Below are positions 10,797 to 27,081 of a stretch of DNA of 64,000 nt, piece by piece. Below the pieces are notes generated by a model, which was not told where the DNA came from, did no database searches, and worked only from the letters and a program-made list of their open reading frames with translations. The translations under genes and the position numbers were made by a program. The DNA comes from Nitrospira sp. Its GTDB lineage: Bacteria > Nitrospirota > Nitrospiria > Nitrospirales > UBA8639. Within the stretch, counting starts at the first letter, position 1; every line of letters begins with the position of its first letter. The stretch is from NCBI GenBank assembly GCA_011523385.1, contig WTGX01000017.1, forward strand, positions 83,318 through 147,317, given 5' to 3'.

Positions 10797-11897
10797 ATGA
10801 CCATTCGAGACACTGTCGGGCAACTCTTGATGGTGGGGTTTGAAGGGACCGAACCCTCCCGGGAATTTCTCGATTGGTTGCAGGAATGTCGGCCGGCCGG
10901 CGTCATTCTCTTTTCGCGTAACCTTGTGGATCCTGAACAGGTGGCGCGACTGACCAATGCCCTCCAGGAGCATGCGCCCAACCCTCCCTTGTTGATTGCC
11001 ATCGATGAAGAAGGAGGCGAGGTGTCCCGCTTGCCCCGGGGCTTTACGACGTTTCCCGCCGCTTCCAGAGTTGCGGCGTGTCACGCTCCGGACGCGGCCT
11101 ATGAAATGGCGAAGGTAACGGCCCAGGAACTGCGGGCGGTCGGGATCAACATGAACCTCGCGCCGGTCCTGGACGTGAACAGCAATCCGGCCAATCCCAT
11201 TATCGGGGATCGTGCCTATGGCACACAGCCCGAACGGGTCTGCACGTATGGCTTGGCCGTGATACAGGGATTGGAGGACAATGGCATCATCCCTTGTGGC
11301 AAACATTTTCCCGGGCATGGCGACACCACGACGGATTCCCACCACGTCCTGCCCGTGGTGGAGGCCGACCGCGCGCGACTCGACGCCGTGGAACTGGAAC
11401 CCTTTCGACAGGCGGTCCGCCGGGGACTGCCCGCGATCATGACCGCGCACGTGCGCTACCCGGCGCTCGATGCGGAAGCGCCGGCGACGCTGTCCCGATC
11501 CATCCTTACCGATCTGTTGCGGAACCAGTTGGGTTTTGAAGGCGTCACGGTCACCGATGATATGGAAATGCGCGCGATTCTCGACCATCAGTCCATCGGG
11601 GAAGCCTCGGTTCGAGCGGTACAGGCCGGTGCCGATATGGTCGTGATCTGTCATCAGCAGGAACGGCAACGGCAAGTCGTGTCAGCCATTGAGCAGGCCC
11701 TCGAACGAGGTGACCTTTTGTGGGAGAGACTCACGGCCAGCGTGGCGCGCATACGGGCCTTGAAAGAAGAACGTCTCGGGCCGTTCCAACCCGTCGATCC
11801 GTCGCGGGTCGCGCAAACCGTTGGTCATCCGCGGCACAAAGCCTTGTTGGCGAAGATTCAAGATGGCAGCCGGGTTCACGACGTTGAACGAAGTTGA
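10797..11897 (+). CDS. nagZ: Beta-N-acetylhexosaminidase (GH3)
   Basis: A 366-residue GH3 enzyme that cleaves N-acetylglucosamine from anhydro-muropeptides during cell-wall recycling in the cytoplasm. Family markers are IAIDEEGGEVSRLP, KHFPGHGDTTTDSHH (the NagZ catalytic loop with the His-Asp acid/base pair) and TDDMEMRAI, whose Asp is the nucleophile. There is no signal peptide, as expected. Length is normal. The next gene starts 36 bases downstream. Confidence 0.93.
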   Translation: MTIRDTVGQLLMVGFEGTEPSREFLDWLQECRPAGVILFSRNLVDPEQVARLTNALQEHAPNPPLLIAIDEEGGEVSRLPRGFTTFPAASRVAACHAPDAAYEMAKVTAQELRAVGINMNLAPVLDVNSNPANPIIGDRAYGTQPERVCTYGLAVIQGLEDNGIIPCGKHFPGHGDTTTDSHHVLPVVEADRARLDAVELEPFRQAVRRGLPAIMTAHVRYPALDAEAPATLSRSILTDLLRNQLGFEGVTVTDDMEMRAILDHQSIGEASVRAVQAGADMVVICHQQERQRQVVSAIEQALERGDLLWERLTASVARIRALKEERLGPFQPVDPSRVAQTVGHPRHKALLAKIQDGSRVHDVERS

Positions 11898-11932
11898 ACC
11901 TGTGCCGGTATCGTGTTTGTACGGAGGAAAGC

Positions 11933-12319
11933 ATGGGGTTGAAAAAAGGCGATATCATCGATGAGCACAAACGCCACCCGGAGAGTTGTGGCTTGATGAT
12001 CAAAGTCATGGCCGGTGGCGCGGGTTTTGAAAAAGTCGTGTGCTGCGGGCACGAATTGACGGAAGAAGACGTGACCCCGGCATTTACACGCGGCCGGGGA
12101 CGGAAACGCGGGACACTCCCGCCGGCCATACTTTTGGATGAGAAAAAACTGTACCCGGATTCCTGTGGCCTCCGTGTCATGATTATGGATGGAGGAGAAG
12201 GGTTTCAGGAAATCAGGTGTTGCGGTCATTCGCTCAAGCTCAATGCGATGAGAGAATTCAAATACGGCGAAGAACAGCGAGGAGCGATGCCCGAAACGGG
12301 GCCGGCCGGTCACGCCTGA
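11933..12319 (+). CDS. Duplicated desulforedoxin-like Cys-rich protein, unknown function
   Basis: A 128-residue protein made of two copies of one unit: HPESCGLMIKVMAGGAGFEK with VVCCGHEL, and YPDSCGLRVMIMDGGEGFQE with IRCCGHSL, joined by an RGRGRKRG-containing linker. The spacing Cys...CCG with GG between resembles desulforedoxin domains, which bind Fe(Cys)4 through CxxC...CC. Here the first Cys of CxxC is Pro in both copies, leaving three Cys per unit, so metal binding may differ or use His. ATG 11933 follows GGAGGAAAGC. The true role is unknown; the desulforedoxin comparison is by eye. Confidence 0.7.
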   Translation: MGLKKGDIIDEHKRHPESCGLMIKVMAGGAGFEKVVCCGHELTEEDVTPAFTRGRGRKRGTLPPAILLDEKKLYPDSCGLRVMIMDGGEGFQEIRCCGHSLKLNAMREFKYGEEQRGAMPETGPAGHA

Positions 12320-12559: not shown

Positions 12560-12844
12560 ATGGCAATCAGTGACCAGGAAAAAATTGGGTCGGTGAGAAG
12601 CGCAGTCGATTTGGCGATCGTGGGGGATAACATAAACGATATTGCGGATTTCACGGTTGAGAAATATGAATTCAAGAATGACGCGAGTCTTTCTTCCGAG
12701 ACGCGTGAAGCAGGAGTCGCCAAGATCAAGGAAGTATTGTGGCAGCGAGTGGAAGAATTGAAAAAGCGGCGCATGCAGGTTCTGGCGGAAATGTTCACCC
12801 TGGCGGAGAGGACGCTTGACGAAATCATCGATAAGGGGAAATAG
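12560..12844 (+). CDS. Small helical protein of unknown function
   Basis: A 94-residue soluble, charged, probably all-helical protein; no membrane segment, signal or Cys. The middle reads ADFTVEKYEFKNDASLSSE, and the C-terminal 45 residues (VAKIKEVLWQRVEELKKRRM onward) look like a long amphipathic helix with heptad spacing. ATG 12560 is preceded by AGGAG with an 8-base spacer. Not recognised. It is the last gene before the GC-rich biosynthetic block and has more ordinary composition, so it probably is not part of it. Confidence 0.6.
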   Translation: MAISDQEKIGSVRSAVDLAIVGDNINDIADFTVEKYEFKNDASLSSETREAGVAKIKEVLWQRVEELKKRRMQVLAEMFTLAERTLDEIIDKGK

Positions 12845-13295: not shown

Positions 13296-16200
13296 ATGAA
13301 CAAGTCTGAAAACCCTGTTGCTATCGTAGGGTACAGTTACCGCATGCCGGGCGGAATCCGCACCGACGACGACTTCTGGCGGCTGCTGAGCGAACGCGAG
13401 ATCGTGCAGGAGCCGGTAAATGAGCGCTACGGCCAAGGCTACCGGCCAATCGGCGAGTTCTCCGGACCGGGTCGGTTTGCCAGCCCGTACGAAGGGCTGC
13501 TCACCGAGCAAAGAGAAAAGCTCTTCGATCGTAGCCTCTTTGCGATGTCGCATCGTGAAATGCTGACAGCCGATCCGCACGTGCGAATGCTCCTGACCTG
13601 TACCTGGGAGACCTCCGAGCGGGTTGGCTGGGATTTGCAATCGTTGCGCAACAGCCGCACGGGCGTGTTCGTCGGTGCGCAGGTTCCGGCGACCTCCAAC
13701 TGGCGCGCGGCGCACGGCGCCAATGAGTTTTCCATCGCCAGTATCAGCCTGGCCATGATGGCCAACCGTATCTCCTACCACTTCAATCTGATGGGGCCGT
13801 CGCTCGCCTGCTGCACGGCCTGTTCCGCTGGCTTGACGGCCTTGCACACGGCGTTGAACGCCCTGCGCTACGGCGACTGCGAACAAGCCTTCGTCGGGTC
13901 GGTCACTTATCTGGGATCAGCCCGGCTCAGCGCAGGCTTCAATGCCTTGGGCGTGATCAGTCCGGACGGCCGGTGCCACTCCTTCGACGCGGACGCCAAC
14001 GGTTACATGCGCTCGGAAGGAGCGTTCGTCTTTGCCATCAAGCCCCTGGCGGCAGCCGAAAGAGACGGAGACCCCATCTACGCCGTGATAGAAGCAACGG
14101 CAGTGAATGCGGCCGGTGCGGCCGACGGCACCGAGGGCTTGGCTCAAGGGCGTTACATTACCGCGCCTACCCGTCATTCACAGGTTGAGTTGATGCGCAT
14201 CGCCTGCACCCGCGCCAATCGCGCGCCCCAGGATTTTGATTACATCGAAGCCCATGCGACCGGGACCGTGGTGGGTGATCGCATCGAAGGGAATGCCATC
14301 ACGGAGGCGTTCGGCGGTGTCAACCGCCAGGTTCCGCTACGGGTTTCCAGCGTCAAGAGCAACGTGGGGCATATGGAAGCCGCCGCGTTCCATTGCGCCT
14401 TGCTCAAGGTCATCCTGATGATGCAGCGCCGCACGTTCGCGCCGATCTCTAAGAATTTTCTGGTGCCGAATCCGGAAATCGATTTCGACAGGTGTCCCAT
14501 GCAGGTGCAGACGACCTGCGAACCCTTTCCCGAATATCCGGTCGTGGTCGGCATCAATTCGTTCGGCTTTGGCGGGGCCAACGGGCACTGCGTGGTGCGG
14601 GAGTACAGCCCGGCGCAACCACGGATCTGGTCGGTGGCGCTGGCGCCGGAGTCGGGCTTCATGATTCCCCTGTCGGCGCGTACGTCCGGGGCGTTGGAAA
14701 AGAGCGCGCGACAGTTGCGCGAGACTCTCGACAAGCAACCGATGGATCTCTACACGCTGGCCGGCAATCTCAGCCGCCGCCGCACCCATTTCGCCACACG
14801 GACGGCCTTTGCGGTGCACACTCAGGAGGAATTGATCGAGGCACTGGACGTCTTTGAGAAAGACCCTTCGCCAATTACCACGGTCGGTGAGGGGAAGCCA
14901 CGGCTTGTGATGGTGTTCTCAGGACAGGGTACGCAGTGGGCCGGTTGCGGTCGCGGGCTTTACGACGCCGATCCCGTGTTCCGCCGCGTCATCGATGCCA
15001 TTGAGGGCCACTGGCGGGAGCACTCGGAAATTTCGTTGCGCGAGGCCTGTTTCTCGGCCACGCAGGAGGCGCTCGACGAGTGCGAGTTGGCCCAGCCCGT
15101 CACGTTCATGATCCAGTGCGCCCTGGCGGAATTGTTCAAGACGTGGGGAGTGTATCCGGACTGCGTGGTCGGTCACAGTTCCGGCGAGGCCGCCGCCGCT
15201 TACGCCTGCGGGGCGCTGTCGCTGGCGGAAGCCACGCGCCTGATTTTCCATCGCGCCACGTTGCAACAGCGCGTGGCCGGTTCCGGTCGCATGCTGGCGA
15301 TCGGCCTTGACCGGCCGGGCGTGGAGCAGCTGCTCGATACGCTACGTCTTCCATTTCGGGACGGGGAAGACCGGCGGGTGGAGATCGCGTGCGAAAACGC
15401 GCCGGCCAGTACCGTCATCTGCGGGAAAGAGGTTGCCTTGCGGCCCGTCATGGAGGAATTGGACCGGCGCCACCTGCAGAATCGGCTGCTTCAGGGGAAC
15501 ATCGCTTTTCATTCCAGCGCCATGGATCCGCTCAGTGACGACGCACATGTGGCCCTGTCTTTCCTGGACGAGTGCGCCTTCGATGCCGAAGTGCCGCTCG
15601 TGTCTTCGGTGACGGGACAGACGACTCAACGGTTGGACAGCGCCTACTGGTGGAAGAACATCCGCCAGACCGTCCTGTTTGCCGCGGCGATCGAAACCGT
15701 CAAGCGGGAGTACCGGCCCGACGTCTTTCTGGAACTCGGGCCGCACAGCGCCCTGCAATCCACCCTCGCCCAGTGCCTGGAAGACTGCGCCCCGGTCCCC
15801 GCCTGCATTCCGACGCTGCTAAGAGACACTGATGTCTGCCTCAGCTTCAAGCGGGCCTTGGGCGCTCTGTTCAGGACCGGCTTGGACTTGGACTTTGCCG
15901 CCCAGTACCCCCGTCCCGAGCCGGTCGCCCATCTGTTGCCCGGCTATCCGCGCGACGAACAGATCACGGCCGACGAAATGAGCGACGACGAGATGTTTCT
16001 GCAACAAGGCCAGTACGCCCACGGTCCGTTGATCGGCCACCGGGTGCCGTGCGACCACCTGCTGTTCGAGGCGCGGCTGTCGGAGCGGGATTTTCCCTGG
16101 CTGGCTGAGCACCGTGTGCATTATGCCTCGATCATGCCGGCGGCCGGCTACATCGAACTGATCCTCCAGGCGTTCGGGGGCGTTCCGCTGTACGTGGAAA

Positions 16201-19200
16201 CGCTCGAGTTCCTGCAGCCGTGTCCGATTCCCAAGACGCCGGTGCGGCTGCAGACCGCGTTGTTTCCGGTCGCCAACGCACCTGACGAATTCACCTTCAC
16301 CATCTCGTCCCGGTCGTACGACGTCGAGTCAAAGAGCGAACTGCACTCCCGCGGCAAGGTGCGCCTGGTGCGCGCAGATCACCCGGTGAACGTACCGCTA
16401 CGGCTGGCGGATATCGACACCGCGTCGTTCGAGCCCTACTACTTCGTGGGTGAAAGCGACTTCTACGAGCGCATCGACGCCAGCCTCGGCGAGACCTTCC
16501 AGTACGGTCCCTACTTCCGGAACATCCAGCGCGTTCTGTGGGAAGGCGACACGGCCGACTATCTGTTCGACGTGGAGATGGATGAGAGGCTGTGGACGAC
16601 CGGTCGCGAGGAAGGGTTCGTCGCCAACCCTGCGCTGCTCGACGGCGGGCTGCAGATCTTCCTCTACCATCTGCTGCGCGCGACCGACATCTTCGCCATG
16701 CCGCGGCGCGCCCAAGGGGTGACGTTCCTGCGCCCGCCGACCGGACCGCGTCTCACCTGCTACGTGAAGAAAGCCAAGGACTGGGCGGATGTGAACGAAC
16801 TGGGGCAGTTCACGGAACGGCGCGGCGAGCGGTCCGGTGGCAGCATCCGGTTCTACGATGGCGCCACGGGCGACCTGGTTTTGTGTATCGACGCCTATGT
16901 CTCCTTCAACTCAAACCCACGCTGGAACGAGCTGCCGGACAGCAAGCACGTCGTCTCATGGCAGCCCAAGTTCGTGCCGGACGCGGTTACTGCCCTGCAC
17001 CGCCTGCCGGAGGGTGAGATCGAACCGGCGGCATTGATCGCCGCCTTGGAGCAGCCCGGCACCGGTGACCGCTATGCCTGCCACGTCGCCGAGATCGCGG
17101 GCGCACGTCCTCCTGAGCAGACCATCCTCAATCAATGCTTCGACTACCTCGGCAGCGCCGGGGCACAGACCGAGTACTGGCTGCTCGGCGACACGCAGGA
17201 ACAGGTGCGCGCACACTACGACGCGTTTTCCAACCGCGATGCCGCCCTGCGCTTTGCCTGCCTCGACCTCGCTGCGGAGCAGGCGCCGAATCTGGACACC
17301 GGCCTGCTGCGGGCACACGCCGCCGAGATTCTCTTGCTCCATGGAGACGCCACGCCGTCGGAGACGGAGCAGTGGGGCCTGCTGCGGCGCCTGGCGGTCC
17401 CCGGCGGCCTGGCGCTGGTCGTGCATCCCGACGGCGCGGCGATCGAGCCGGGCACCGGCTGGAAAACGGTACGCGCCGGACAGCACACCACCCTGCTGCA
17501 GGCGCCCCAGGCTGTGAATACTTCCGAACCGCGGGAACTGCCCGGGCCCCGCTGGGTGATCGGCGAGCCGGACAGCTTGGCCGCCGAATGGCTGGCGTTC
17601 CTCAAGACGTCCGAGGCGCACGCCGTCCCTTACGCGGACTTGGCAGACGACCGCATCGGCGCGCTGGCCAATTGGCCGAAGGCGGCCGACTTACAGGCAA
17701 TCGACTTCTTCTGCGGCGCCGATCCCGACGATCCGACAGGCGAAAAGCTGGTGGCGCGCCTGGTCGCCTTCGTCAAGGCGCTGATTCCGTATCGGGTGGC
17801 GCAGGCGCGCTGTTCCTGTCGCTTGACCGTGGTGACACACAGCGCCGCGTTTGAAGTCGCGGAGCCGCGTGCGAGCGCCGTGTGGGGAGCGCTACGCGCC
17901 ATCGGCCAGGAGGTCGACGCGGACGTGGGCACGGAATCGCAAATCGAATTTCGGCTGGTGGATCTGGACGCCGCCGGGGACCTTGAGACCTTGGCCTGGC
18001 TCGGTGCGTGCGACCTGCGGGAGCGCGAGCTGGCGATCCGCCGCAACCGGATATGGGTGCCGCGGCTGACCAGTATCCAGGAGCGGGGTCCGCTGGTGCC
18101 GGCGGGTGAGGAAGCCACCTACCGGCTGACCCTGGAAAATCCGGGACAGATCGGCGGCCTGCAGATGACGACCTGCGAGCCCGCATCTCTGGGGCCGCAC
18201 GACGTGGAGATCGACGTGGCAGCCGCGGGGCTCAACTTTCGCGACGTTATGGTCACGCTGGGATTGCTGCCGTCACTCTCCTACGAACGCTCGGCGCTGG
18301 GCCGCACGGTGGGGGTGGAGGCCAGCGGGATCGTGCGCCGCACGGGCGCCGCGGTGCATACCTGCCGCCCCGGCGAAGCTGTGGCCTTTACCCAAGGCGG
18401 CTGCATCGCCAATCGTGCCGTGGTTAAAGAATATCTGGTATTCCGCAAACCCTCGTCCCTCACCATGGAGGAGGCCGCGTCTGTCCTGTCGGTTTACGTC
18501 ACCGCCTACTATTCGCTGGTGCATCTCGCGCGCCTGCGCAAAGGCCAGCGCGTGCTGATCCACTCCGCCATGGGCGGCGTCGGCCAGGCGGCGATCGCTC
18601 TTGCGAAGCACGCGGGGGCGGAGATCTACGCCACGGCCGGCAGTGAGAGCAAGCGCCAACAACTGCGTGCGCTGGGGGTGCGCGCGGTATTCGATTCGCA
18701 CGCCTTCGACTGGTACGACGGCTTGATGGAGGCGACCGGGGGTGAGGGTGTCGACGTGGTGCTGAACTCTTTGGCCGGACGCCATATCGCCCTCTGCCTG
18801 GATGCGTTGCGGCCGGGAGGCTGGCACTGCGAGATCGGCAAGGTGGACATCTACGCCGACAATGCGCTCAGCCTGTGCGTGTTCCGGAAGAACCTGCGCT
18901 TCGCGGCGATCGACGTCGACCGCCTGATGAGCGACGATCCGGAACTGGCACGCGAATTGTCGCAGCAGTGCATGAACCTGCTGGATCAGGGTGCCGTGCC
19001 GTCGTTACCGATTACCTCCTTCGCCTACCGCGACTATGCCGAGGCGCTACGCCTGATGACCACTGGCCAGCACACGGGGAAGCTGGTTCTGAAAGCTCCG
19101 CCGGCCGCCGGTGCCGACCGTTTCCCGATTGTCGATCGGCGCCCGTTTCTCGACCCCGAGGCGACCTACCTGATCACCGGCGGATTGGGTGGATTCGGCA

Positions 19201-20366
19201 GGCTGTTGCTGCCTTATCTCGTGGCCGCGGGCGCGCGCCACCTCACCCTGATGGACCGCGATCCGCAACGCCGCCGCAGTGTCGACTGGGTCCGGAAGAC
19301 CAGTGCGTTGTGGTATCTCTCGGAAGAGGTGGAGATCGCCATCGTCGCGGGCGACGTAGCGGACGAGGCGGACGTGCGGCGCTGTATCGCCGGATTGCAG
19401 CGCCCGCTGAAGGGCGTCTTCCATCTCGCGGGTGTACTGGACGATTGCCTGCTGGCGGACCTGACGACCGAATCGCTGTCCACGGTGTTTGCACCCAAGG
19501 CGCGTGGCGCCCTCAATCTCCACAATGCGACCGCCGACCTCGCCCTCGACCACTTCGTGCTGTTCTCCTCCATCGCCTCGACGCTGGGCAACCCGGGACA
19601 GGTCAACTACAGTGCCGCCAACGGGTTCGTGGACGGGCTGGCGGCCTTCCGCCGGCGCCAGGGATTGCCTGCGCTGTGCTACAACCTGGCCGCGGTCGCG
19701 GAGGCCGGCATGGCTTCGCGCAGCCTGCACGTGCTGCGCATGGCGCGGGCCGCGGGCATGCCTCCGGTCAGCGCCGATTTCGCCGTGACCAACCTCGATT
19801 ACGCCATGCGCACGCTGGCCGACGGGGATCACCTGATTACCGCCCTGTTCTTCCGCCCGCCCTGGACAGTCGACTCGCCCGACTACCTGCGGAGCGGACG
19901 GGTGCTCAGCAACCCGGACGCGTTCGCGATCGATACCGGGGGCCAACTCACGCTGGATGCCGTGGTGGAGCAGATCACCGGCAAGGTGGCCGAGTTGTGC
20001 GGCCACAGCGAGGGCAGCCCGGAGGAACCATTGTCCAGCTTCGGGCTCACGTCGATTTCGGTCGCCGAACTGGGAGCGTTCATCCGGATGCAGTTCAACT
20101 ATCAGGTCAGCGCCCTCGAACTGATGACGACGGCCTCCGCTCTGTCGTTGGCACAGGACATCATCCATGGGAAGAAGGACGTTCAGGAAGACCGGGTTGA
20201 GACGGGTACGGCCGGGCCCGAGGATGCTCCTCTTGCCGGCCGGCAGCGCATCTGCCGCACACCGTCGGCGTTTGCCAGCGTGCTGGAAGACCACTTTCCG
20301 CCTGGGGCCGGCGTTGAATCCGCCAACCCTGAAAACAGGGAGCGGGGAGAACGGTGCCATGCCTAA
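13296..20366 (+). CDS. Iterative highly reducing type I polyketide synthase (KS-AT-DH-psiMT-ER-KR-ACP)
   Basis: A 2356-residue single-module synthase. KS: Cys176 in CCTACSAG, His320 in EAHATGT, His359 in SNVGH. AT: Ser628 in GHSSGE and AFHS near 739, which favours malonyl-CoA. DH: His939 in AEHRVHY (the usual Gly of HxxxGxxxxP is Tyr) and Asp1116 in LLDGG. Residues ~1230-1420 sit where a C-methyltransferase belongs but lack a clear SAM motif I. ER: NADPH loop HSAMGGVGQ at 1756. KR: TGGLGGFG at 1961, B-type LDD at 2048-2050, Tyr2105. ACP: Ser2253 in GLTSIS. There is no thioesterase. The set predicts a fully reduced acyl chain. ATG 13296 is preferred over an in-frame TTG at 13221. The 3' end overlaps the radical SAM gene by 8 bases. 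Confidence 0.92.
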   Translation: MNKSENPVAIVGYSYRMPGGIRTDDDFWRLLSEREIVQEPVNERYGQGYRPIGEFSGPGRFASPYEGLLTEQREKLFDRSLFAMSHREMLTADPHVRMLLTCTWETSERVGWDLQSLRNSRTGVFVGAQVPATSNWRAAHGANEFSIASISLAMMANRISYHFNLMGPSLACCTACSAGLTALHTALNALRYGDCEQAFVGSVTYLGSARLSAGFNALGVISPDGRCHSFDADANGYMRSEGAFVFAIKPLAAAERDGDPIYAVIEATAVNAAGAADGTEGLAQGRYITAPTRHSQVELMRIACTRANRAPQDFDYIEAHATGTVVGDRIEGNAITEAFGGVNRQVPLRVSSVKSNVGHMEAAAFHCALLKVILMMQRRTFAPISKNFLVPNPEIDFDRCPMQVQTTCEPFPEYPVVVGINSFGFGGANGHCVVREYSPAQPRIWSVALAPESGFMIPLSARTSGALEKSARQLRETLDKQPMDLYTLAGNLSRRRTHFATRTAFAVHTQEELIEALDVFEKDPSPITTVGEGKPRLVMVFSGQGTQWAGCGRGLYDADPVFRRVIDAIEGHWREHSEISLREACFSATQEALDECELAQPVTFMIQCALAELFKTWGVYPDCVVGHSSGEAAAAYACGALSLAEATRLIFHRATLQQRVAGSGRMLAIGLDRPGVEQLLDTLRLPFRDGEDRRVEIACENAPASTVICGKEVALRPVMEELDRRHLQNRLLQGNIAFHSSAMDPLSDDAHVALSFLDECAFDAEVPLVSSVTGQTTQRLDSAYWWKNIRQTVLFAAAIETVKREYRPDVFLELGPHSALQSTLAQCLEDCAPVPACIPTLLRDTDVCLSFKRALGALFRTGLDLDFAAQYPRPEPVAHLLPGYPRDEQITADEMSDDEMFLQQGQYAHGPLIGHRVPCDHLLFEARLSERDFPWLAEHRVHYASIMPAAGYIELILQAFGGVPLYVETLEFLQPCPIPKTPVRLQTALFPVANAPDEFTFTISSRSYDVESKSELHSRGKVRLVRADHPVNVPLRLADIDTASFEPYYFVGESDFYERIDASLGETFQYGPYFRNIQRVLWEGDTADYLFDVEMDERLWTTGREEGFVANPALLDGGLQIFLYHLLRATDIFAMPRRAQGVTFLRPPTGPRLTCYVKKAKDWADVNELGQFTERRGERSGGSIRFYDGATGDLVLCIDAYVSFNSNPRWNELPDSKHVVSWQPKFVPDAVTALHRLPEGEIEPAALIAALEQPGTGDRYACHVAEIAGARPPEQTILNQCFDYLGSAGAQTEYWLLGDTQEQVRAHYDAFSNRDAALRFACLDLAAEQAPNLDTGLLRAHAAEILLLHGDATPSETEQWGLLRRLAVPGGLALVVHPDGAAIEPGTGWKTVRAGQHTTLLQAPQAVNTSEPRELPGPRWVIGEPDSLAAEWLAFLKTSEAHAVPYADLADDRIGALANWPKAADLQAIDFFCGADPDDPTGEKLVARLVAFVKALIPYRVAQARCSCRLTVVTHSAAFEVAEPRASAVWGALRAIGQEVDADVGTESQIEFRLVDLDAAGDLETLAWLGACDLRERELAIRRNRIWVPRLTSIQERGPLVPAGEEATYRLTLENPGQIGGLQMTTCEPASLGPHDVEIDVAAAGLNFRDVMVTLGLLPSLSYERSALGRTVGVEASGIVRRTGAAVHTCRPGEAVAFTQGGCIANRAVVKEYLVFRKPSSLTMEEAASVLSVYVTAYYSLVHLARLRKGQRVLIHSAMGGVGQAAIALAKHAGAEIYATAGSESKRQQLRALGVRAVFDSHAFDWYDGLMEATGGEGVDVVLNSLAGRHIALCLDALRPGGWHCEIGKVDIYADNALSLCVFRKNLRFAAIDVDRLMSDDPELARELSQQCMNLLDQGAVPSLPITSFAYRDYAEALRLMTTGQHTGKLVLKAPPAAGADRFPIVDRRPFLDPEATYLITGGLGGFGRLLLPYLVAAGARHLTLMDRDPQRRRSVDWVRKTSALWYLSEEVEIAIVAGDVADEADVRRCIAGLQRPLKGVFHLAGVLDDCLLADLTTESLSTVFAPKARGALNLHNATADLALDHFVLFSSIASTLGNPGQVNYSAANGFVDGLAAFRRRQGLPALCYNLAAVAEAGMASRSLHVLRMARAAGMPPVSADFAVTNLDYAMRTLADGDHLITALFFRPPWTVDSPDYLRSGRVLSNPDAFAIDTGGQLTLDAVVEQITGKVAELCGHSEGSPEEPLSSFGLTSISVAELGAFIRMQFNYQVSALELMTTASALSLAQDIIHGKKDVQEDRVETGTAGPEDAPLAGRQRICRTPSAFASVLEDHFPPGAGVESANPENRERGERCHA

Positions 20367-22128
20367 TGCGCTTCTGGTGTATCCCGAATACCCTCCATCC
20401 TACTGGGGGATGCACTTTGCTCTGGAGATTTCCGGCTTCAAGGCGGCCTTTCCGCCTCTGGGTTTGCTCACCATCGCCGCGATGTTCCCGCCGGAATACG
20501 ACCTCCACGTCGTGGATATGAACGTGACTCCCCTGGAGGACACGGATTTGGAGTGGGCCGATCTGGTCTGTACCTCCACCATGATCGTTCAGCGATACTC
20601 CCTGCAAACCGTGATCGAGCGCTGCAACCGGGCCGGCGTGCCCGTGGTGGCCGGAGGACCTTATCCCACTTCATACCATGAAGAGATCGCGGGCGTGAGC
20701 CATTTCGTATTGGATGAGGCCGAGGAAATCTTTCCCGAGTTTCTGCGGGCCTTGGAAACCGGCACGGCCAAGGCCATCTACCGGGAACCGCGCAAACCGG
20801 ACGTGCTCCGGACGCCGATTCCCCGTTTCGACCTCATCGATCTGAAAGTCTACGACTCGATGTGCGTCCAGTTCTCCCGAGGCTGCCCGTTCGACTGTGA
20901 ATTCTGCGACATCATCCAGCTCTACGGACGGATTCCCCGGACCAAGTCGCCGGAGCAGATGGTGCAGGAATTCGACGCCCTGTATCGGCTGGGGTGGCGC
21001 GGCCCGCTGTTTCTGGTGGACGACAACTTCATCAGCAACAAGCGAGACGCCTTGAAGCTGCTGCCGGTGCTGGCAGAGTGGCAGAAGGCTCGCGGGTATC
21101 CGTTTACCCTGTTCACGGAAGCGACGGTAAATTTGGCCCGCATGGAGGAACTGATGGATGCCATGATCGAGGCGGGTTTCAATTCGGTGTTTGTGGGCAT
21201 TGAAACGCCCAATCCCGAGGCCTTGATCAAGATGAAGAAGGCCCAGAACACCAGCAAGCAGGACGAGGATTATCTGCTCCATTCCGTGCGCAAGATCCAG
21301 GAAAAAGGGATGCGCGTCGATGGGGGATTCATCCTGGGTGCGGACGGGGATGACGAGAGCGCGTTTGACGCCCAGATCAATTTCATCAGGGAAGCGGGCA
21401 TTCCCATGGCCATGGCAGGCCTGTTGAATGTGCTGAAGGACACGGATCTGTATAAACGCCTGAAGAGGGAGAACCGGCTCTTGAATGAGACAACCGGAAC
21501 CGGCGGCACAGTCATCGCCAATCTGTCCGGCGTCAACGTCGACCTCAACTTCAAGCCGGAGATGGATCCCGAAACCTTGTTCGAGGGCTATCGACGGGTC
21601 ATTACGACCCTCTACGCCCCGACGCTGGAGAGTTACTTCACGCGCTGTCTGACGCTGTTCAAGCACCTCAAGCCAGTCCCGCACCTGCTCAAGTCCTCCA
21701 CCCGGAACGCGCTTTTTGTGGCCATGATGTCTGTGCGCCGTCGGCTTTCCGCTGAGCAAATTCCGGCCTACGGGAGGTTCATCGCCAAAATCTCCAAGAA
21801 TCACCCCCGTATGCTCCCTGAGGCGATCCGCTTGGCCGCCTTGGGCTACCACTTTGAAAAAATCACCCGTCAGCAGATTGCGATCCATGCCTTCCGGGAA
21901 TTTCTGTCGGCTGAGTTGGAGAGATTCAAAGAAGTGGTGGCGCATCCCGGCCGGGACGTGGAAGCCATCAGGGATCAGCGGCAAGAGGTGTTCACGCGCG
22001 TCGAAGCTCGCTATAAGTCGATCCCCGAGGACTTTCGTTACCATGGAGACGGCATCGAGCCTGCGTTGGAAAGTTTCCAATTCGCCGTGAATGATCAGGT
22101 CGAGCAACTCACACACGCGGTGAGGTAA
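20359..22128 (+). CDS. B12-binding-domain radical SAM protein (DUF4070/HpnP-like)
   Basis: A 589-residue class B radical SAM protein. The N-terminal ~145 residues have a cobalamin-binding-like Rossmann fold (LLVYPEYPPSYWG, PPLGLLTIAAMFP, VPVVAGGPYPT). The cluster motif is SRGCPFDCEFCDI with Cys176, Cys180 and Cys183, followed by YGRIPRTKSPEQM, as in the DUF4070 group that includes hopanoid methylase HpnP. Such enzymes methylate unreactive carbons using methylcobalamin. The ATG overlaps the end of the PKS gene, so the two are translationally coupled. The natural inference is methylation of the polyketide or its lipid product, which would make up for the degraded methyltransferase region of the PKS. 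The substrate is not shown. Confidence 0.85.
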   Translation: MPNALLVYPEYPPSYWGMHFALEISGFKAAFPPLGLLTIAAMFPPEYDLHVVDMNVTPLEDTDLEWADLVCTSTMIVQRYSLQTVIERCNRAGVPVVAGGPYPTSYHEEIAGVSHFVLDEAEEIFPEFLRALETGTAKAIYREPRKPDVLRTPIPRFDLIDLKVYDSMCVQFSRGCPFDCEFCDIIQLYGRIPRTKSPEQMVQEFDALYRLGWRGPLFLVDDNFISNKRDALKLLPVLAEWQKARGYPFTLFTEATVNLARMEELMDAMIEAGFNSVFVGIETPNPEALIKMKKAQNTSKQDEDYLLHSVRKIQEKGMRVDGGFILGADGDDESAFDAQINFIREAGIPMAMAGLLNVLKDTDLYKRLKRENRLLNETTGTGGTVIANLSGVNVDLNFKPEMDPETLFEGYRRVITTLYAPTLESYFTRCLTLFKHLKPVPHLLKSSTRNALFVAMMSVRRRLSAEQIPAYGRFIAKISKNHPRMLPEAIRLAALGYHFEKITRQQIAIHAFREFLSAELERFKEVVAHPGRDVEAIRDQRQEVFTRVEARYKSIPEDFRYHGDGIEPALESFQFAVNDQVEQLTHAVR

Positions 22129-22167
22129 AAAATAATCCTGAATCTACACTAGTAAAGGAAAGAAAAC

Positions 22168-24672
22168 ATGACTCAAAGTTCCTCCGGCGACATAACGGTG
22201 GCCCCGCTCGCTGGTTCCCTGCCGCCGCATTGCCAGAAAGACGTCGAGACCCTGCGTCGATTCGTTCATGAGACGGTCAGCCGCGAGTCGCCGGCCGATC
22301 CTGTGTCTTCGTCTGAGTTCAGGGAGGTTCTGCTGACCGGGGCGACCGGATTCATCGGTCGTTTCTTCCTGCGTGACGTTTTACAGCAGACGACCGATCT
22401 GATAGCGCACTGCCTGGTTCAGGCCGACAACGTCGAGCATGGATTCGAGCGCGTGCGCGCCGCCCTGCAAGATGCTGAAATCTGGGATGAGGCGTTCGCA
22501 CCGCGCATCCGTGTGGTAGTCGGCGACATCGGCCGGGTCCGATTCGGTCTGAACGTCGCGGATTTTACCAATCTCTGTCAGCGGATCGACGCCGTCTATC
22601 ATCTTGCGGCTGATATCAAGCTCTCTTCCTCCTACATCGCCATACGTAAGGTCAATACGCTCAGCATTCGCAACGTGCTCGAATTGTGTTTGCGCACGCG
22701 CTTCAAGCACCTGTTCTTTGCCTCGACCATGGGTGTGTTTCCGCAGTATTTCTATTCCTTCGCACATGAATTCAAAGACCGCCTCATCGGCCACCAGATG
22801 CAACCGGATCTCGACACCATGAAGCGAGAGTTTCCGATTGGTTTGTTGGGCTACTCATGGAGCAAGCTAACAGCGGAGCAGGTCCTTCTGTTTGCGCAGC
22901 AGACCGGTATGCCGTTGGCGTTATTCCGGCTGCCGCATACTAATATTTCCAGTACGGGTTTCGTCCGGGCTAACGACTTGGCGGTGAGAATATTTGCCGC
23001 CGCGCTGGTGGCCGAAACCATTCCGAAAGGATTGACGTTTCGATCCGGACACGAGGCGGTCGATACACTGAGCCGAGCCTGTACGGCCATCTCCTTGAAT
23101 CCCGAACGGCGTTTCACCATCTACCATTGCTGCAACCCGCAGCTCGAGCATTACGACCTCGAATTCGCCGACTTCGGGACCTATCTGCCCGAGGTTCCCT
23201 ACGAGTCGTTCAAGCGCGCCTGCCAGGCCAGTGAGAACTCACCGCTTCACGGACAATGGGCGGTGCTCGATCATTTTGCGAAATATTGGTTCAGCCAAGA
23301 CAAACCGCAGGACAGGTTTCCCATTTCGGACCGTGCTCTCCGGGAGGACTGCCCGCATCCGATCAAATGGCCGGGTGTGCTGACCAAGCTTCGACACTCC
23401 TACCAGTGGGTCATGAGCCATCGGTGGCAATGGCCCCATCCCGTGTCACGGGGCCGCCTGGATTTCGCCTGCCTGATCGACCAGGCTAAACGCTACGCTA
23501 AAGACAATGGCGTTTCATTCGAATCGGCATATCCCGCATGGATGCGTCGAAACCTGGAGCAATTGGTTCGCGCGGTGCAAACGTCCGAGGTCAAACTTCT
23601 GGAGGACAAGCTTCCTGGACTTGTCTTCGACTTCAGCCGTCTTTTGCGGAAAAACGCCGCGTTCGCCCGTGAACGACAACAGTATCCGGAGATCGAGCGG
23701 GAGGAAATCACGCGTCCAGTCTTCATCGTCGGGATCAATCGTACCGGCACGACCTACCTGCACCGCCTGATGGCCCATGACAAGCGGTTTTGGGCGCTAC
23801 GGGGCTACGAGTTCACCGCGCCGATTCTGTCAAAGGAGGAATACGCCACGATCGGCGGTACACCCGACGATCCTCGCCGGGCACGGGTCGAGGAAATGCT
23901 CAACTCATCCGGGGTCGTCGAGCTCTTCGAGGGCGTTCACCACTTCGACGTGAACGAACCGTCGGAAGATTTCCCGATCTTGACCATGGCCTTCGGCTCA
24001 TGGACCTCCATGGTTCGATTCCACATCCCCGAATTCGGCCGCTGGCTGGCCGCCACCGGTTCACAGCATGTCTACGCCTACCACCGCCGCATCATGCAAA
24101 GTTACACTTGGCAGCGCCGGCAACGTCAGCTTGGACACCAGGGACAGTGGCTGTTCAAAATGCCCTTTCACCTTATGGAATTGGAAACCCTGGTCAAGAC
24201 TTACCCTGATGCCCTATTCATCCAGACCCATCGCGAACCCACGCAATTCATGGGGTCCTGGAGCAGCTTCGTGGAAAAGGCGCGCTCACTTTCCGTCCAT
24301 CCGCAGCCGCGAGAAAGCCTCGGCGTCGAGCTTCTGGACTTCATGAGCGGCATGATGGAAAGAGCCGTGCATTTCCGGGAAACCCATCCCGAGTTGGAAC
24401 ACCGTTGGATGGACGTGAACTACGTCGACCTGATCGAGGACCCGTTTGGTGTGGTTCGCCGGATCTATCAACACTTCGGCTGGACTCTTGAACAGGCGAC
24501 CATCGACGCCATGGAAGAGTGGCAATTCCGGCAAGCAGAGAAACGACGCACGGAGAAGCGGCATCGCTACGCCCTGGAGGACTACGGCCTCACCCCGGAG
24601 GCGGTCAACGCCGCTTTCAAACGCTATCGGGACTTTCTCACCACCCGCGGCATTCGGACATCCCGGGCATGA
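22168..24672 (+). CDS. Thioester reductase - sulfotransferase fusion protein
   Basis: An 834-residue two-domain enzyme. Residues ~50-410 form a thioester-reductase-type extended SDR: TGATGFIG at 57-64, VVVGDI, YHLAADIKLSS, and catalytic YSWSK (Tyr229/Lys233). This is the family of NRPS/PKS terminal reductase domains that release ACP-bound acyl chains as aldehyde or alcohol using NADPH. Residues ~515-825 form a PAPS-dependent sulfotransferase: the phosphosulfate loop is GINRTGTTYLH from 522, and FQTHREPT-like IQTHREPTQFMGS matches the 3'-phosphate-binding region. The PKS has no thioesterase, so this protein probably releases the chain and sulfates the new hydroxyl. AAAGGAAAG precedes the ATG. 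The order of reactions is inference. Confidence 0.85.
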   Translation: MTQSSSGDITVAPLAGSLPPHCQKDVETLRRFVHETVSRESPADPVSSSEFREVLLTGATGFIGRFFLRDVLQQTTDLIAHCLVQADNVEHGFERVRAALQDAEIWDEAFAPRIRVVVGDIGRVRFGLNVADFTNLCQRIDAVYHLAADIKLSSSYIAIRKVNTLSIRNVLELCLRTRFKHLFFASTMGVFPQYFYSFAHEFKDRLIGHQMQPDLDTMKREFPIGLLGYSWSKLTAEQVLLFAQQTGMPLALFRLPHTNISSTGFVRANDLAVRIFAAALVAETIPKGLTFRSGHEAVDTLSRACTAISLNPERRFTIYHCCNPQLEHYDLEFADFGTYLPEVPYESFKRACQASENSPLHGQWAVLDHFAKYWFSQDKPQDRFPISDRALREDCPHPIKWPGVLTKLRHSYQWVMSHRWQWPHPVSRGRLDFACLIDQAKRYAKDNGVSFESAYPAWMRRNLEQLVRAVQTSEVKLLEDKLPGLVFDFSRLLRKNAAFARERQQYPEIEREEITRPVFIVGINRTGTTYLHRLMAHDKRFWALRGYEFTAPILSKEEYATIGGTPDDPRRARVEEMLNSSGVVELFEGVHHFDVNEPSEDFPILTMAFGSWTSMVRFHIPEFGRWLAATGSQHVYAYHRRIMQSYTWQRRQRQLGHQGQWLFKMPFHLMELETLVKTYPDALFIQTHREPTQFMGSWSSFVEKARSLSVHPQPRESLGVELLDFMSGMMERAVHFRETHPELEHRWMDVNYVDLIEDPFGVVRRIYQHFGWTLEQATIDAMEEWQFRQAEKRRTEKRHRYALEDYGLTPEAVNAAFKRYRDFLTTRGIRTSRA

Positions 24673-25275: not shown

Positions 25276-27081
25276 ATGCCGAATCAGAGAGGCTTCAGCC
25301 GTTTCGACGCGCTTGAGACGGAGTCGGGCAATGCCCGGGAGAACGTCCTGCGCTTCATCATCTGCGGCGATGCGGGCGACGGCAAGTCCGCACTGATCCG
25401 CAGCCTGCTTGACAATCTCCAGGCGGAACGCGAGCAGGGCATCACGATCGACGTGGCCTATCGCACGTTCTCGACCGGCAAACGTTCCTTCATCGTCGCC
25501 GACACGCCGGGGCACGAGCAGTACACGCGTACCCTGGCGACGGGCGCATGGTCCGCCGATATCGCGATCGTTCTCATCGACGCCCGCAGGGGCGTGACCC
25601 CGGAGACCCGCCGTCATACCACGATCCTCTCCCTCCTCGGGATCCGTCATCTGATCCTGACGATCAACAAGATGGATCTCATGGAGTGGTCCCAATCCAT
25701 CTACGACGCGATCGCGGGGGTCTATCGTGACTATGCGCAACGGCTCGACTTCACTGATGTCACCTGCATTCCAGTCTCGGCACTGACCGGCGACAACATG
25801 ATTGAGCCATCCGCCGCGATGGGCTGGTATCACGGACCGACGCTCCTTCAAGCACTCGAATCGGTCGACGTGGCAACCGACCGTGCGTGCGCGCCCTTTC
25901 GCATGCCCGTGCAAGGGGTCAACCAATCAGACGACGGGTCCCGTGTTTTCACGGGCACCATCGCATCGGGTCTCGTGCGTCCCGGCGATCCCATCCTGGT
26001 CTGTCCGGCGCACACGCCCTCGACCGTGAGTCGCATCGTTGTCCCGGAAGGCGATCTCGCATGCGCGCGAGCCGGTCAGGCCGTCACACTCACACTCGCC
26101 GCCGACATCGACGTGAGTGCCGGTGACGTCATCGCTTCGAGCAGCCATCCTCCTGGCCGTAGTGATCAGTTCGCCTGTCACCTGATCTGGATGCACGAGA
26201 ATGCGCTGTTGCCCAAGCGCTCCTATCTGTTGAAGATCGGCACACACGTGGTGGAAGCCCAAATCACGGCTCTCAAGTACAAGCTTAACGTCGAGAGCTT
26301 GGAACACGTTGCCGCCAAGACGCTTGAACTCAACGAGATCGCCTATTGCAACATCGGTCTCGACCGGCAGATCGCCTTCGACCGTTACAGGGAACTCAGG
26401 GAGACCGGCGGCTTCATTCTGATCGATCGCCACACCCATGCGACGGTGGGTGCCGGCATGATCGATTTCGCCCTGCGGCGGGCGTCCAACCTGACCCGTC
26501 ATCAATTCACGGTCGACAAACCGGCGCGGTCGGTTCAGAAGAACCAGAAAGCCTGCGTCCTCTGGCTCACCGGGCTGTCGGGGGCGGGCAAATCGACGAC
26601 GGCAAACGCCGTGGAGCAGCGCTTGCACGCCTTGGGGCGGCACAGCTACGTCCTGGACGGCGACAACTTGCGCCACGGGCTGACGAGGGATCTGGGTTTT
26701 ACCCAGGCCGACCGCGTCGAGAACGTGCGGCGTATCGCGGAGGTTGCCAAACTGTTCGTGGATGCCGGACTGATCGTGCTCGTCTCGGTGATCTCGCCCT
26801 TCCGGGATGAACGTCAAATGGCCCGCCGGATGATGGAGGAAGGCGAGTTCATCGAGATCTTCGTGGATGCGCCGTTGGAGGTCTGTGAGCGCCGCGACCC
26901 CAAGGGGCTCTATCGGAAGGCCCGGACCGGCGAGATCAAGAACTTCACCGGCATCGACAGTCCCTATGAGCCGCCCGAGAATCCCGACATCGTGTTGAAG
27001 ACCGGCGAGCGAAGCGTGGATGAACTCGTGGATCAGGTCGTCGCCTATCTGCGATTGGAGGTCGAGCCTCCGGGGTCATAG
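25276..27081 (+). CDS. cysNC: CysN-CysC fusion: ATP sulfurylase GTPase subunit + APS kinase
   Basis: A 601-residue bifunctional protein of sulfate activation. The N-terminal GTPase has P-loop GDAGDGKS (31-38), switch QGITIDVAYRTF, DTPGHEQYTR and NKMDL, then two beta-barrel domains. The APS kinase begins near 430 with GLSGAGKSTT, followed by DGDNLRHGL, GFTQADRVENVRR and DPKGLYRKAR, giving PAPS. About 45 residues normally present between P-loop and switch I of CysN are missing: RSLLDNLQAEREQG follows the P-loop directly. CysD, the catalytic partner of CysN, is not in the window. PAPS is the donor for the sulfotransferase encoded just upstream, so this is probably a dedicated NodQ-like supply enzyme. 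Confidence 0.92.
   Translation: MPNQRGFSRFDALETESGNARENVLRFIICGDAGDGKSALIRSLLDNLQAEREQGITIDVAYRTFSTGKRSFIVADTPGHEQYTRTLATGAWSADIAIVLIDARRGVTPETRRHTTILSLLGIRHLILTINKMDLMEWSQSIYDAIAGVYRDYAQRLDFTDVTCIPVSALTGDNMIEPSAAMGWYHGPTLLQALESVDVATDRACAPFRMPVQGVNQSDDGSRVFTGTIASGLVRPGDPILVCPAHTPSTVSRIVVPEGDLACARAGQAVTLTLAADIDVSAGDVIASSSHPPGRSDQFACHLIWMHENALLPKRSYLLKIGTHVVEAQITALKYKLNVESLEHVAAKTLELNEIAYCNIGLDRQIAFDRYRELRETGGFILIDRHTHATVGAGMIDFALRRASNLTRHQFTVDKPARSVQKNQKACVLWLTGLSGAGKSTTANAVEQRLHALGRHSYVLDGDNLRHGLTRDLGFTQADRVENVRRIAEVAKLFVDAGLIVLVSVISPFRDERQMARRMMEEGEFIEIFVDAPLEVCERRDPKGLYRKARTGEIKNFTGIDSPYEPPENPDIVLKTGERSVDELVDQVVAYLRLEVEPPGS

Follow-up and report, generated by a model that had tools for sequence, protein, structure and literature searches.

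A reductase–sulfotransferase fusion of the swf family beside a constrained APS kinase in a Nitrospira-type bacterium

The gene at 22168–24672 of the window (the 64,000-nucleotide stretch of Nitrospira sp. contig WTGX01000017.1 that was analysed) is, judged by architecture, motifs and gene order, the swfB of a swf cluster, a family described in 2013 from symbionts of marine sponges (Della Sala et al., 2013; PMC3908369). Its product joins a thioester reductase (R) domain and a sulfotransferase (ST) domain in one chain. We consider it reasonably likely that SwfA, SwfC and SwfB form a route in which an acyl chain is released reductively and then sulfated to an alkyl sulfate. The R-ST architecture and the proposal of reduction and sulfation at the chain end are already known, the latter from the 2013 authors (PMC3908369); new here are support for sulfation, the association with a 94-residue gene, the mosaicism of swfB and the loss of swf in relatives.

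Table 1. Features of the swf locus, in window coordinates
Feature	Position	Strand	Remarks
Conserved 94-aa helical protein, upstream of swfA	12560..12844	+	proposed fourth swf component
swfA, monomodular type I PKS/FAS KS-AT-DH-ER-KR-ACP	13296..20366	+	open frame from 13221, ATG at 13296
swfC, B12-binding radical SAM enzyme with DUF4070	20353..22128	+	PF02310, PF04055, PF13282
swfB, reductase-sulfotransferase fusion	22168..24672	+	single ORF, 834 aa, ATG start
Thioester reductase (R) domain, SwfB aa 54-371	22327..23280	+	TIGR01746 E 1e-55, PF07993 E 2e-43
NAD(P) motif TGATGFIG, SwfB aa 57	22336	+	R domain
YSWSK, SwfB aa 229	22852	+	R domain; catalytic Ser = Ser186
Sulfotransferase (ST) domain, SwfB aa 517-775	23716..24492	+	PF13469 E 7e-33
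5'-phosphosulfate loop GINRTGTTYLH, SwfB aa 522	23731	+	ST domain
cysNC remnant	25276..27081	+	first ~17 aa of CysD fused to shortened CysN; APS kinase half intact
APS kinase domain (PAPS synthesis)	26551..27000	+	PF01583 E 5e-72

The SwfB fusion and its cluster

The three swf genes lie close together, with the start of swfC overlapping the end of swfA. SwfA carries HATGT, GHSSGE, IAFH and QCALAEL, the last a variant of QCALVEL, and these are the Swf signatures defined by Della Sala et al. (2013; PMC3908369). Since the signatures are found together with the R-ST architecture, we assign the window's gene to the described family as a further member. The clusters of 2013 share with the window the domain order of SwfA, usually SwfC, the signature motifs and the product hypothesis, and the SwfB proteins of POR_0550, PS11G3 and PSA11D7 are R-ST fusions like the window's (832 and 839 residues in P. 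simplex; PMC3908369). The gene order A-C-B is that of the POR cluster, whereas PS11G3 has A-B-C; swfC was not found near loci L007 and L013, as in PSA11D7. The window differs from those clusters in having an APS kinase downstream and in lying on a long Nitrospira-type contig. Its host is a Nitrospira-type bacterium that is probably sponge-associated; later papers place swf in Nitrospirota, Latescibacterota, Acidobacteriota and Tectomicrobia.

The preliminary description had read the gene as an intact thioester reductase fused to an intact sulfotransferase, from the motifs of Table 1, and both halves of that reading held; it drew no link to the adjoining genes for the PKS, the radical SAM enzyme and the APS kinase. 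In Pfam, NAD_binding_4 (PF07993) spans residues 56–291, and Sulfotransfer_3 (PF13469) scores 115 bits against a gathering cut-off of 27. In NCBIfam, the R domain scores 189 bits with the Thioester-redct model, under the curated cut-off of 213, and so is best called a clear TIGR01746 relative below the formal family threshold. In a profile search of solved structures, the best relatives of the R domain were MxaA (4u7w) and the PKS reductase 8v1x (E 1e-45 to 1e-50). The terminal reductase of MxaA (4u7w/4w4t), the closest solved one, likewise releases a thioester from a carrier protein, but it ends another assembly line and has no attached sulfotransferase. The best solved relatives of the ST domain were 2zq5 and 2z6v, which we take to be mycobacterial sulfotransferases. 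An AlphaFold2 model of the whole fusion, built from 18 homologues, was too poor for claims about the interface or the fold (pLDDT 55, pTM 0.38).

These scores also bear on whether the N-terminal domain might instead be an SDR of the sugar or steroid type, with a substrate that is not bound to a carrier protein. Generic epimerase and 3beta-HSD models do match it weakly, but sugar epimerases and dehydratases reach only about 1e-5 where thioester-reductase models and structures reach 1e-50, and a PKS adjoins swfB in the intact clusters examined. We therefore rejected this reading, which is highly improbable, in favour of a carrier-protein reductase, as first described.

Relatives of SwfB were sought in one genome per species across 84,980 species, and close relatives were found at 19 loci. 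The R-ST chain runs in one unbroken frame at 17 of these, one of which is clipped at its start by a contig end; the recurrence of this domain order, which the preliminary description had proposed to check, thus extends over several phyla. The aligned set comprises 18 proteins including the window's SwfB (52–82% identical to it) and leaves out L005, which has one in-frame TAG, and L019, a partial ST domain only. Source labels are Latescibacteria, Gemmatimonadota, Acidobacteria, Alphaproteobacteria and Nitrospira. Aplysina aerophoba provided two of them, namely bin75, whose contig belongs to the same-genus genome G005 and has the length and coordinates of L006, and bin43 (L010). Among the 346 Nitrospirota genomes sampled, 6 have full or partial SwfB, and every one of the 6 is of the window's genus; the remaining matches at the same threshold cover the sulfotransferase region only. 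According to the 2013 paper, the only other contiguous R-ST is the terminal pair of the coccidian multimodular type I FAS, a eukaryotic megasynthase (PMC3908369).

That the fusion might be an artefact of assembly or annotation has a negligible probability. The genome is a draft of 38 contigs, and nothing further speaks for an artefact; against it, separate assemblies yield 18 proteins with the fusion, one of them encoded on the 6.27-Mb chromosome record OX638377. Because 17 further independent loci carry the same fusion, an assembly join was rejected, and the one-chain arrangement stands as first reported.

The catalytic residues of both domains are invariant in all 18 proteins: TGxTGFxG, S186, Y229 and K233 in the R domain, and the N524-RTGTT loop (GxNRTGTT), K664, H668 and H688-R689 in the ST domain. 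Compared with seven relatives, swfB has dN/dS of 0.19–0.25 in the R domain and 0.14–0.25 in the ST domain, with a looser linker (0.21–0.58). Each domain is under purifying selection, and both appear to be kept by it.

PAPS supply and a fourth candidate component

Downstream of swfB lies a cysNC gene in partial decay. About 34 residues that would follow the P-loop are missing from its CysN part (the loss is larger in G004 and G005), and the rest of CysD is absent at the locus; with cysD missing and CysN shortened, we rejected the gene as a complete sulfate-activation enzyme. The APS kinase half has dN/dS of 0.07–0.11 among swf-bearing relatives, whereas the CysN half has 0.25–0.38, against 0.15–0.17 in intact copies (G006, G010 and G013). 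The APS kinase is thus strongly constrained while the attached CysN is relaxed and cysD is gone, which fits a locus that now has to provide only PAPS. SwfB is the sole PF13469 and PF00685 match in its genome; a second APS-kinase-like match, linked to CysN on contig 10, is weak and partial. On the simplest reading, the cysNC site has been kept to make PAPS for SwfB, and the CysN and CysD-like genes of contig 10 supply the APS. That the sole sulfotransferase of the genome has a constrained APS kinase as its neighbour supports a truly sulfated product.

In 14 genomes of the genus, intact APS kinase goes with intact sulfotransferase, the single exception being G012, which has the sulfotransferase without a full APS kinase (Fisher p 0.03, a value that ignores shared descent and deserves little weight). 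Decay of swf is accompanied by decay of cysNC in G003 (frameshifts) and in G011 (kinase only). The adjacency is confined to the Nitrospira lineage: cysNC was not found in the swf flanks (up to 10 kb) of other phyla, and we accordingly rejected it as a general part of swf.

Upstream of swfA, the 94-residue protein has homologues in the same 5' position in several phyla. Among Nitrospirota, its gene is present in exactly the six sampled genomes with swfB or a remnant. In the genus, it occurs in 8 of 8 swf-positive genomes (those bearing swf or a swf remnant; G003 and G011 were scored at their loci) and in 0 of 6 swf-negative ones (Fisher p 0.0003, again ignoring shared descent); G004 has two copies. 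The gene was not found in the examined swf flanks of L007, L008, L016 and L017. Its dN/dS of 0.13–0.24 indicates purifying selection. AlphaFold2 predicts a helical hairpin (pLDDT 84), for which no structural match was obtained at E < 0.001; the protein has no Pfam match of value and no PADLOC match. By size and position only, it is probably the ORF19/POR_0546 of the 2013 paper. Separately, an ORF of about 130–140 residues after nagZ (11894–12319), with repeated Cys motifs (CCGHxL), is conserved in G002 and G006 and belongs to no clear family.

Mosaic history and loss of swf

Compared with G002, a genome of the same genus, the window is 90–99% identical in DNA over most of swfA, 59–68% over most of swfB and 92% just downstream. 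Over its last 94 residues, SwfB is 89% identical between the two, and over the rest only 52–59%, a step that marks an intragenic recombination boundary. The nearest relative of the window's SwfB is a Latescibacteria protein (81% identical in R, 87% in ST), and the R tree and the ST tree both split the Nitrospira sequences apart. The gene swfB is mosaic, and transfer between phyla together with recombination fits these data; that selection has favoured exchange of the tailoring half is speculation. As a separate observation, a tract of 59–85% identity to L073/L074 of the same genus (20200–24600) lies between near-identical swfA and downstream DNA, and it suggests that recombination replaced the swfC-swfB part.

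In several relatives, swf has been lost by deletion. G011 has a broken swfA, a TAG in swfB and no swfC at the site; G003 retains only the ST end of swfB; and in G010 the start of the KS is joined to the ST end, a deletion scar. We also noted in G006 a nagZ-cysD interval (L068:2958-8660) that has, in place of swf, genes for a P450, for an MpaB/Lcp-type oxygenase and for a separate PF13469 sulfotransferase; a similar set, read from translations, lies beside the scar in G010 (L066).

A route to alkyl sulfates and its alternatives

For the substrate, the alcohol rather than the aldehyde, the order of steps and the product, we infer the following. SwfA would build an acyl chain on its own ACP, by iterative use or a single elongation, and the chain would be largely reduced because SwfA has DH, ER and KR. 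SwfC may alter the chain, by methylation or otherwise. The R domain would bind the acyl-ACP, cut the thioester with NAD(P)H and reduce the aldehyde on to the primary alcohol. Finally, the ST domain would transfer the sulfonate of PAPS, supplied by the adjoining APS kinase, to the alcohol hydroxyl, giving a long-chain alkyl sulfate. Direct passage of the alcohol from the first site to the second, as put forward in the preliminary description, would be a further, hypothetical feature of this route. The role in release is supported by the position of the R-ST protein after an ACP-ending PKS, with no match to a thioesterase in any of SwfA, SwfC, SwfB and the cysNC product.

An R domain may go no further than the aldehyde, which counts against an alcohol product. 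At the position of the CAR aspartate (FRSDM/FRCDM), which we presume holds CAR reductases at the aldehyde, the SwfB proteins have P, S, G or A, MxaA has Gly and the PKS reductase 8v1x has Asp. A residue other than Asp in SwfB may bear on the depth of reduction, but is a hint only because 8v1x also has Asp. It is quite unlikely, in our estimate, that R yields the aldehyde alone and that the hydroxyl sulfated by ST is a separate one or is formed later. Two-electron reduction is common among R domains, SwfC could carry out further chemistry and the fusion does not prove successive action, but we saw no enzyme dedicated to aldehyde reduction in the swf cluster and the CAR-type Asp is missing from the SwfB proteins.

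CurM and Ols likewise employ a sulfotransferase in PKS chain termination, but they differ from swf in using a thioesterase and decarboxylation to give an alkene. The contrast drawn with them in the preliminary description is borne out as far as it goes, given the missing thioesterase match and the ST profile matches (2zq5, 2z6v), among which no CurM/Ols ST structure was recognised. The CurM sulfotransferase works on a beta-hydroxyacyl-ACP (PMC3908369), and an iterative PKS can omit DH in one cycle, so that ST could sulfate a beta-hydroxyl before the chain leaves the ACP; R would then release the chain as a sulfated aldehyde or alcohol, or as a product of elimination. We judge sulfation within the chain unlikely, as ST is placed after R and not between ACP and R, its profile matches include no recognised CurM/Ols ST, and DH, ER and KR matches are all present in SwfA.

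Further points stand against our preferred route of reductive release followed by sulfation: no alkyl sulfates are known to be widespread in sponges, no new metabolite appeared when E. coli expressed a complete swf cluster (both PMC3908369), and the cysNC adjacency is restricted to the Nitrospira lineage in the flanks examined. In the literature searched, we found no swf product and no PKS pathway to an alkyl sulfate. A fuller scheme, more doubtful than probable, would combine a four-gene pathway (the 94-residue protein, SwfA, SwfC and SwfB) having its own PAPS supply in this lineage, a new class of modified alkyl sulfates common to unrelated sponge symbionts, four-electron release and sulfation by SwfB in one chain, and a tailoring half exchanged between phyla by recombination.

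The swf family is one of two PKS families reported to be widespread in sponge microbiomes. Retention of the APS kinase suggests that PAPS may have to be supplemented in an expression host, and the APS kinase and the 94-residue gene are candidate additions to a new expression attempt. Alkyl sulfates are the chemical class to seek; as the 2013 authors pointed out, standard saponification and methylation of fatty acids would miss them (PMC3908369).
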